Shown piece after piece: positions 18,234 through 18,976 of a stretch of DNA of 21,114 nucleotides (positions are counted from its first letter, which is position 1; every line of letters begins with the position of its first letter). The DNA lies in IMG/VR virus record IMGVR_UViG_3300030406_001046, positions 1 to 21,114 of that record. The stretch is one strand, 5' to 3'. Below the pieces are notes generated by a model that saw only the letters and a program-made list of their open reading frames with translations, made no database searches and was not told where the DNA came from. The position numbers were made by a program, and so were the translations under genes. This stretch comes from a virus.

Positions 18234-18531
18234 AGAAGAAAAAATAGAAAGAAGAAATTGGATGAGTAAAGAACAAAAAGTTCTTACTGCTAGAAAATTA
18301 TTCGCAAGTATGCGAGGTCAATATATAATTGGTCAAGCCCTTTACGTTGCAATAAAAGAACTAGATAAAGTTCCTGGAGCAATGAAAGAAGTATCAAATA
18401 TAGAAGATATGAAATTATTAATGCATACCTTATTTCCTATTTATAATGATACGATGAGTATAGATGAAGAAGAAAAGAATATCGTTAGTGAGTTTCCGAC
18501 AACTCAGAGTCCATACGACGATCCAGCTTAA
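18226..18531 (+). CDS. Unknown 101-aa helical protein
   Basis: ATG 18226 overlaps the previous stop; AAGGA lies about 8 bases upstream. The protein is helical with a charged start (MSEEEKIERRNWMSKEQK), a central region ARKLFASMRGQYIIGQALYV that resembles a small DNA- or protein-binding helix bundle, and an acidic Pro-containing tail (SEFPTTQSPYDDPA). It is the last gene before the 208-bp gap containing the structured RNA. No family recognised. Confidence 0.65.
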   Translation: MSEEEKIERRNWMSKEQKVLTARKLFASMRGQYIIGQALYVAIKELDKVPGAMKEVSNIEDMKLLMHTLFPIYNDTMSIDEEEKNIVSEFPTTQSPYDDPA

Positions 18532-18557
18532 CTCATAAAAAACATTACTTTTAGTTT

Positions 18558-18584
18558 TTAACATTTTAAAATATTTACTATAAT
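18558..18584 (+). promoter_or_regulatory. Candidate promoter of the structured RNA
   Basis: TTAACA (18558-18563, one mismatch to TTGACA) and a perfect TATAAT (18579-18584) are 15 bases apart, a short spacer. Transcription would start near the GGG at 18589-18591, exactly where the first predicted RNA hairpin begins. Confidence 0.5.
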
Positions 18585-18588
18585 AAAA

Positions 18589-18726
18589 GGGTAATATGGG
18601 ATTGTTACCTCCAGTCTCATGTTATTTGTTAGATGGCAACAGAGTAGGGTGCTATGAGGTTGAGTACAACAGATAGCTTAATGAGGGGCAAAATACTTGC
18701 ATACCGACCCCTCGCCCTACACTTTT
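18589..18726 (+). ncRNA. Candidate structured RNA with a three-way junction
   Basis: About 138 bases between genes, about 45% G+C over 18601-18720, clearly above the AT-rich surroundings. I can fold it by hand. Hairpin A: GGGTAATA 18589-18596 with TTGTTACCT-type partner 18603-18610. Hairpin B: TTGTT 18626-18630 with GGCAA 18635-18639. Junction stem P1: GTAGGGT 18644-18650 with GCCCTAC 18714-18720. P2: GCTAT 18651-18655 with ATAGC 18673-18677, continued by GTTG/CAAC closing an AGTA loop. P3: GAGGGG 18683-18688 with CCCCTC 18708-18713. P1 abuts P2 and P3 without unpaired bases. TTTT at 18723-18726 may end it. It is either a separate RNA or the leader of the next gene. I recognise no known family. 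Confidence 0.65.
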
Positions 18727-18739
18727 AGAAAGGAAGAAT

Positions 18740-18976
18740 ATGTCAGATCTTTACGAGTTAGAAGCAAAGTACGAAGTTCATTCCTGTTGGGAATTAGACT
18801 TCGATGTTAAAGACGTTCATGCTTGGTGGATAAAGTATGATCGATTATATGTTATTCACCAAGACGGTGAAGATATAAAAGAATATCCTCCAACATATTC
18901 AGGTCGAACAAATGATCTTAAACGTGCAGAGTGTTATTATCTAAATGCAGCACCTGTAGAAGAAAAAACATTATAG
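18740..18976 (+). CDS. Unknown 78-aa acidic, aromatic-rich protein
   Basis: ATG 18740 behind AGAAAGGAAG, directly downstream of the structured RNA region, which could therefore act as its leader. The protein is acidic and rich in Tyr and Trp (CWELDFDVKDVHAWWIKYDR, then LYVIHQDGEDIKEYPP), probably a small beta-sheet fold. No signal, membrane helix or catalytic motif is seen. Its RLYVIHQDGEDI segment loosely resembles the 'y-I..n.L..y' strand pair in the next two proteins, but similarity is too weak to call a relationship. Confidence 0.65.
   Translation: MSDLYELEAKYEVHSCWELDFDVKDVHAWWIKYDRLYVIHQDGEDIKEYPPTYSGRTNDLKRAECYYLNAAPVEEKTL

Follow-up and report, generated by a model that had tools for sequence, protein, structure and literature searches.

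The segment 18589-18726 fills the gap in front of gene X, the first gene of an operon, on the plus strand of a 21,114-nucleotide stretch of viral DNA (IMG/VR record IMGVR_UViG_3300030406_001046; hereafter the window, meaning that stretch at its full length). A promoter precedes the segment, which carries a hairpin (hp1) followed by a three-way-junction RNA (module A), which is separated by 6 nt from the downstream Shine-Dalgarno region of gene X (Table 1).

Table 1. Coordinates of the features in front of and including gene X (window numbering)
Feature	Position	Strand	Basis or remark
Promoter	18544..18584	+	upstream motif ATTACTTT 35 bp before extended -10 TTTACTATAAT; TATAAT 18579-18584
hp1, 5'-terminal hairpin	18589..18627	+	begins at predicted transcription start
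Module A, three-way-junction RNA	18644..18720	+	RNAfold, RNAalifold, alignment
P1, 7 bp	18644-18650/18714-18720	+	module A fold
P2a, 5 bp	18651-18655/18673-18677	+	module A fold
P2b, 4 bp, loop AGTA	18659-18662/18667-18670	+	module A fold
J2/3, TTAAT	18678-18682	+	sole joiner of P2 and P3
P3, 6 bp	18683-18688/18708-18713	+	module A fold
L3, 19-nt loop of P3	18689..18707	+	alignment A6; invariant save 18694 T/C
Shine-Dalgarno region of gene X, AGAAAGGAAG	18727..18736	+	unpaired to modules
Gene X, 78-aa protein	18740..18976	+	ORF; first operon gene behind leader

The locus and its promoter

The family A DNA polymerase encoded in the window has its best isolate match in phage 023Pt_psg01 (56%), followed here by phage DSL-LC04 (52.5%) and the Pelagibacter phages HTVC023P and HTVC027P (50-51%). 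The window belongs to an uncultured HTVC023P-like phage. Near-identical contigs from other samples are present in IMG/VR (L001, L002), so module A is not an assembly artefact. Homologous gaps were gathered through three anchors, namely gene X, the DNA polymerase and DNA patterns taken from three portions of the element; the resulting sample is small and drawn from one phage group. No tRNA or tmRNA was detected in the window.

Gene X has homologues in 15 IMG/VR contigs, near-identical ones counted, and no PHROG, Pfam or isolate-phage match. Its AlphaFold model has a mean pLDDT of 57 and is not interpretable. A strong hairpin lies within its coding sequence (18812-18877, MFE -21.8) and persists in a weaker form in some relatives; no tile of the window has a lower z than the one that starts at 18761 (-4.9).

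The preliminary description of this DNA had placed a TATAAT just before a GGG start, and both are there, the GGG at 18589. The same promoter layout, with identical spacing, stands upstream of gene X in L003, L008 and L014, and a related layout was aligned visually in L025, L229, L234 and L235. Scanning found no canonical -35 at this promoter. The promoter is conserved in all leader variants, with the structured element always just downstream, and we place the predicted transcription start at about 18589. This type of promoter, a ATTATTTT-like motif upstream of TTTACTATAAT without a canonical -35, recurs in many gaps of L011-L039 as well as at 18544-18584; its spacing is 35 bp in the window, L003, L008 and L014.

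Structure of the leader

RNAfold reproduced to the base the junction drawn earlier for this segment (P1 of 7 bp; P2 of 5+4 bp with an AGTA loop; TTAAT; P3 of 6 bp with a 19-nt loop). The junction proper begins at 18644 rather than 18589. Folding of 18589-18726 gave an MFE of -43.1 kcal/mol with z -2.40, and 5 of 200 shuffles were as stable; in the proposed comparison, most dinucleotide shuffles were thus less stable than the segment. The 77-nt junction alone reached z -3.03 (10/1000 shuffles). When the contig was tiled in 150 windows of 138 nt, none matched the MFE of the segment, the next being -38.0. Stability alone is nevertheless not decisive, since equal or lower z values occur in 7 of these 150 tiles.

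Module A is represented by four distinct IMG/VR sequences (window/L001/L002, L008, L025 and L207), too few for significant covariation. From these RNAalifold recovered the core junction, and all consensus pairs are invariant except 18686-18710 in P3, which is G-C in the window and a compensated A-U in L008, L025 and L207. The three outermost pairs of P1, and the top one of P2a, are lost in some copies. The proposed covariation check on P1-P3 was passed only weakly, with one compensatory pair set against four that are broken in some copies. The number of junction pairs is not above that of shuffles (120 of 500 do as well for the four distinct sequences) because the copies differ too little. Folded singly, L008 module A adopts a different structure and z reaches only about -0.9 for the L025/L207 copies, so the junction rests on the consensus and not on single sequences. 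Conservation is higher in the loops than in the outer part of P1. Kissing of L2 and L3 (AGUA with UACU), possible in the window, was considered and set aside, as it is weakened by the T-to-C change, the one substitution seen in L3. A 24-codon frame runs through module A (18644-18733), and its substitutions in relatives show an excess at third positions.

The pairing upstream of the junction, first described as two hairpins, is present and is better drawn as the single 16-bp hairpin hp1 (18589-18627). This hairpin has an MFE of -15.5 and z -4.1, and none of 1000 shuffles was as stable. Its 10-bp core is kept across four distinct sequences (window, L003, L014, L008), the exception being one U-U in L008, and two pairs run through A-U, G-U and G-C in these same sequences; the stem was aligned by hand because of a loop insert in L008. 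From these alignments, covariation supports hp1 better than the junction. A general habit of this phage group of beginning transcripts with hairpins was tried as an explanation and rejected: no excess of 5' hairpins was seen at 28 promoter-like sites of the group (mean z -0.9), and controls were no less structured.

We compared the element with known families and outside sequences. Rfam gave no match in the window, and Rfam 15 gave none at 18500-18760 up to E 5; the L008 leader gave only a chance snoRNA match and module C gave none. The earlier statement that no family matches the element thus holds, as no Rfam 15 family reaches its gathering threshold and permissive thresholds add none. Among isolate phages there were no DNA homologues of the element, only chance matches that fell mostly in the AT-rich promoter part, and bacterial genomes yielded two chance matches, both lacking the structure. 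A descriptor of P2 was found in 116 contigs; the rest of module A occurred only in the known copies.

Exchange of elements in relatives

Relatives carry different elements in the slot between promoter and gene X. It holds hp1 and module A in the window, L001 and L002; hp1 and module B in L003, L004 and L014; hp1, B and A in L008 and L009; module A alone in L025 and L207; and a short hairpin in L005-L007. An unrelated, strongly folded RNA leader of about 200 nt, module C, occupies the slot in L017 and L019. In L234/L235 (the L020/L021 contigs) the slot is empty, with a mere 27 nt separating the predicted start from the ATG. Module B is an RNA of about 107 nt, unrelated to A, with a 16-bp closing stem and z values of -3.6 (L003), -1.8 (L014) and -4.5 (L008). 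The module C leader has an MFE of -72.7 (240-nt leader plus 33 nt of gene, L017/L019 type). It lies at about 9511-9738 in L017 and at the same place in L019; the two copies are 98% identical and differ by 1-nt indels, so module C is not coding.

The pairs L234/L226 and L235/L225 each oppose an empty to a filled site within near-identical flanks, and such empty sites indicate that module A also comes and goes. Covariance-model and DNA searches of whole records (up to 60 kb) found each module once per record and in this slot only. All four distinct module A copies lie between the promoter and the Shine-Dalgarno of gene X homologues. In L014, neither gene X nor the gene after it was found; around 8868, hp1 and B stand directly before a zinc-ribbon-like gene, a homologue of the third operon gene of the window (19257).

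Module A is far more similar between genomes than its surroundings. Between the window and L008, 86 of 90 module A bases are identical (95%), against 63% for the gene X protein and 59% for its third positions (Fisher p 4e-9 for module A versus third positions); L008 and L025 share 70 of 74 module A core bases against 49% of third positions. Hence the module is either under strong constraint or mobile between genomes. That close relatives have this slot empty or filled with unrelated folded RNAs suggests an exchangeable RNA control element.

The sister clade holds another non-coding RNA candidate, at L026 10424-10490, L027 10258-10325, L029 10600-10663 (after a tRNA-Leu), L033 10507-10569, L034 8842-8906 and L035 10067-10127. 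Its core reads GGGCGGGGUGCC..GGUUUG..CCUCGUCC, and 4 of its 19 consensus pairs show compensatory changes. There was no Rfam match at the gathering threshold in any of the five loci, out of these six, that were searched.

Interpretation

We give a probability of about one half to the reading that 18589-18726 acts in cis, as the exchangeable 5' leader RNA of an early operon, with different structured RNAs swapped between phages. Transcription would start at about 18589, placing hp1 at the first nucleotides of the message with module A behind it and close before the Shine-Dalgarno region, and the leader would act in cis on the operon message. It probably controls mRNA stability or a post-initiation step and is not a riboswitch that masks the Shine-Dalgarno. 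Most likely hp1 would shield the 5' end from 5'-end-dependent decay, and the junction with its conserved loops would be a folded platform for a host or phage protein or enzyme that tunes stability or processing. Shielding would apply to hp1 and not to module A, since in L025 module A begins several nt past the predicted start. The slot itself would accept A, B, B+A, C, a short hairpin or nothing, exchanged between phages. On our analysis this cis-acting leader is the reading that needs least. Against it stand the L234/L235 relatives, which live without any element, and the survey of 28 promoter-like sites with its lack of a general 5'-hairpin excess.

The preliminary description had called the segment a deliberate transcript, either a trans-acting RNA or a riboswitch-like leader. 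The structured RNA, the conserved promoter in front of it and the phage context bear this out, while its transcription, its early timing, its action in cis, its binder and its effect on stability are things we infer. A leader fits better than a free-standing RNA because all four copies precede the gene X Shine-Dalgarno with no conserved terminator between. The TTTT reported after the last stem is present in the window, but the U-run is missing from other module A copies (CAACTATAG in L025/L207), and it is thus not a conserved terminator. The leader part of the earlier proposal is the better fit, and the classical riboswitch part is not supported.

Another possibility, which we consider unlikely, is that the slot works as a cassette site whose RNAs act in trans, being cut from the operon message or transcribed apart from it. 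These would hit host or rival-phage targets, for example as decoys, sponges or anti-defence agents, and would be swapped like accessory genes. Unrelated RNAs exchanged in one slot are to be expected of interchangeable leaders and of swapped trans-acting RNAs alike, and exchange of whole RNAs, together with loops conserved beyond the needs of stability, also fits RNAs acting in trans. The near identity of module A in genomes with diverged flanks, its loops more conserved than the outer P1, and the retention of module B in L014, where gene X was not found, would agree with such a role. Against it, the element always lies close before a Shine-Dalgarno and nowhere else in the records, no conserved terminator would free the RNA, and any target is putative. 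We are more doubtful still of the fuller version, in which the gap is a hypervariable non-coding RNA slot behind a conserved early promoter, its RNAs exchanged among HTVC023P-like marine phages and acting in trans on the host or its defences.

It appears improbable that the element works like HK022 put, as an antitermination or anti-pausing RNA that targets RNA polymerase on its way out of the early promoter. Lambdoid phages carry alternative elements in equivalent positions (nut versus put), which counts for this reading. So does the place, as putL is likewise a folded RNA of about 70 nt just downstream of an early phage promoter (PMC9378689). The put RNA consists of two stem-loops, however, rather than a junction (PMC9378689). 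Moreover, a single plus-strand terminator-like candidate was found behind gene X, inside the next gene, which is about the chance number; with few such sites there would be little to read through. Relatives without the element also speak against it.

A ligand-binding riboswitch controlling gene X would account for the three-way-junction shape, the conserved loops and the leader position, but we regard it as quite improbable, as no expression platform could be found. Partition-function folds of all leader types never showed a module paired with the Shine-Dalgarno, and the U-run behind P1 is missing from some copies; together these remove both standard platforms. In addition, the gene behind module B in L014 is a different one, some relatives lack the element altogether, and the single L3 substitution costs the L2-L3 pairing AGUA/UACU one of its pairs. 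Autoregulation by the gene X protein is likewise disfavoured, because L014 keeps module B and gene X was not found there.

It is very doubtful that module A encodes a short peptide, either solely or in addition to folding as RNA (M R L S T T D S L M R G K I/T L A Y R P L A L..., to a TAG before the Shine-Dalgarno). From column 14 of alignment A6, seven of nine substitutions fall at third codon positions, for a hand-computed nominal binomial p of about 0.008 before correction for frames. Of these seven, however, two belong to the P3 pair that changes in a compensatory way, and the linker behind P1 accounts for most of the others. Two of the four copies, L025 and L207, have lost the ATG, and a similar peptide was sought in phages without success. 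Frame-breaking indels in modules B and C, and an overlapping hp1 frame broken in L014 (judged by eye), also weigh against this reading. The coding alternative for module A is therefore weak. Finally, a miniature mobile palindromic DNA element without RNA function is highly unlikely: insertions are clean relative to empty sites and TTTTTAG repeats flank module A in L008, yet, unlike MITE- or REP-type palindromes with their several copies at different sites, the element is present once, here and nowhere else, in every searched record that carries it (whole records, up to 60 kb), with no constant target-site duplication and with invariant loops.

One promoter-proximal slot with interchangeable structured RNAs would open a clear way into the study of how these phages exert control through RNA. 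The transcriptome of HTVC027P, an HTVC023P-type phage, has already been profiled in infected SAR11 cells, a precedent for the type of experiment required.

Comparison with known systems

Like purine-riboswitch-type three-way junctions, module A has a P1-P2-P3 junction with two arms able to approach each other. It differs from them in having no Rfam match, no conserved loop-loop pairing and no expression platform. It also resembles the RNA motifs found by comparative genomics (PMC2864571) in being a candidate structured RNA by conservation and position only; unlike those motifs, it is restricted to one phage group, in which exchange and empty sites are documented.

In E. coli, 5'-terminal base pairing is an established mRNA stabiliser, according to work of Belasco's group as cited in PMC3997798. 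Stabilisers of this kind have a stem at or near the 5' end and an unblocked Shine-Dalgarno, and hp1 has both in the window, L002, L003, L014 and L008, with the start being a predicted one. As in the ompA/papA-type stem-loops, the nucleotides with which the predicted transcript opens are base-paired in hp1, and the hairpin leaves the Shine-Dalgarno free. Module A differs from that type, being a junction with invariant loops that starts several nt past the predicted start in L025.

HK022 put RNA, two stem-loops of about 70 nt, binds RNA polymerase and suppresses terminators (PMC9378689). Like putL and putR (PMC9378689), the element described here is a folded phage RNA, about 70 nt long, that heads an operon and lies just past a promoter, in the present case a putatively early one. 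It differs in its closed three-way junction, in having no sequence match to put, in the few candidate terminators behind it and in being optional in relatives. In our assessment, put would be the nearest functional parallel, by place and size and not by fold.
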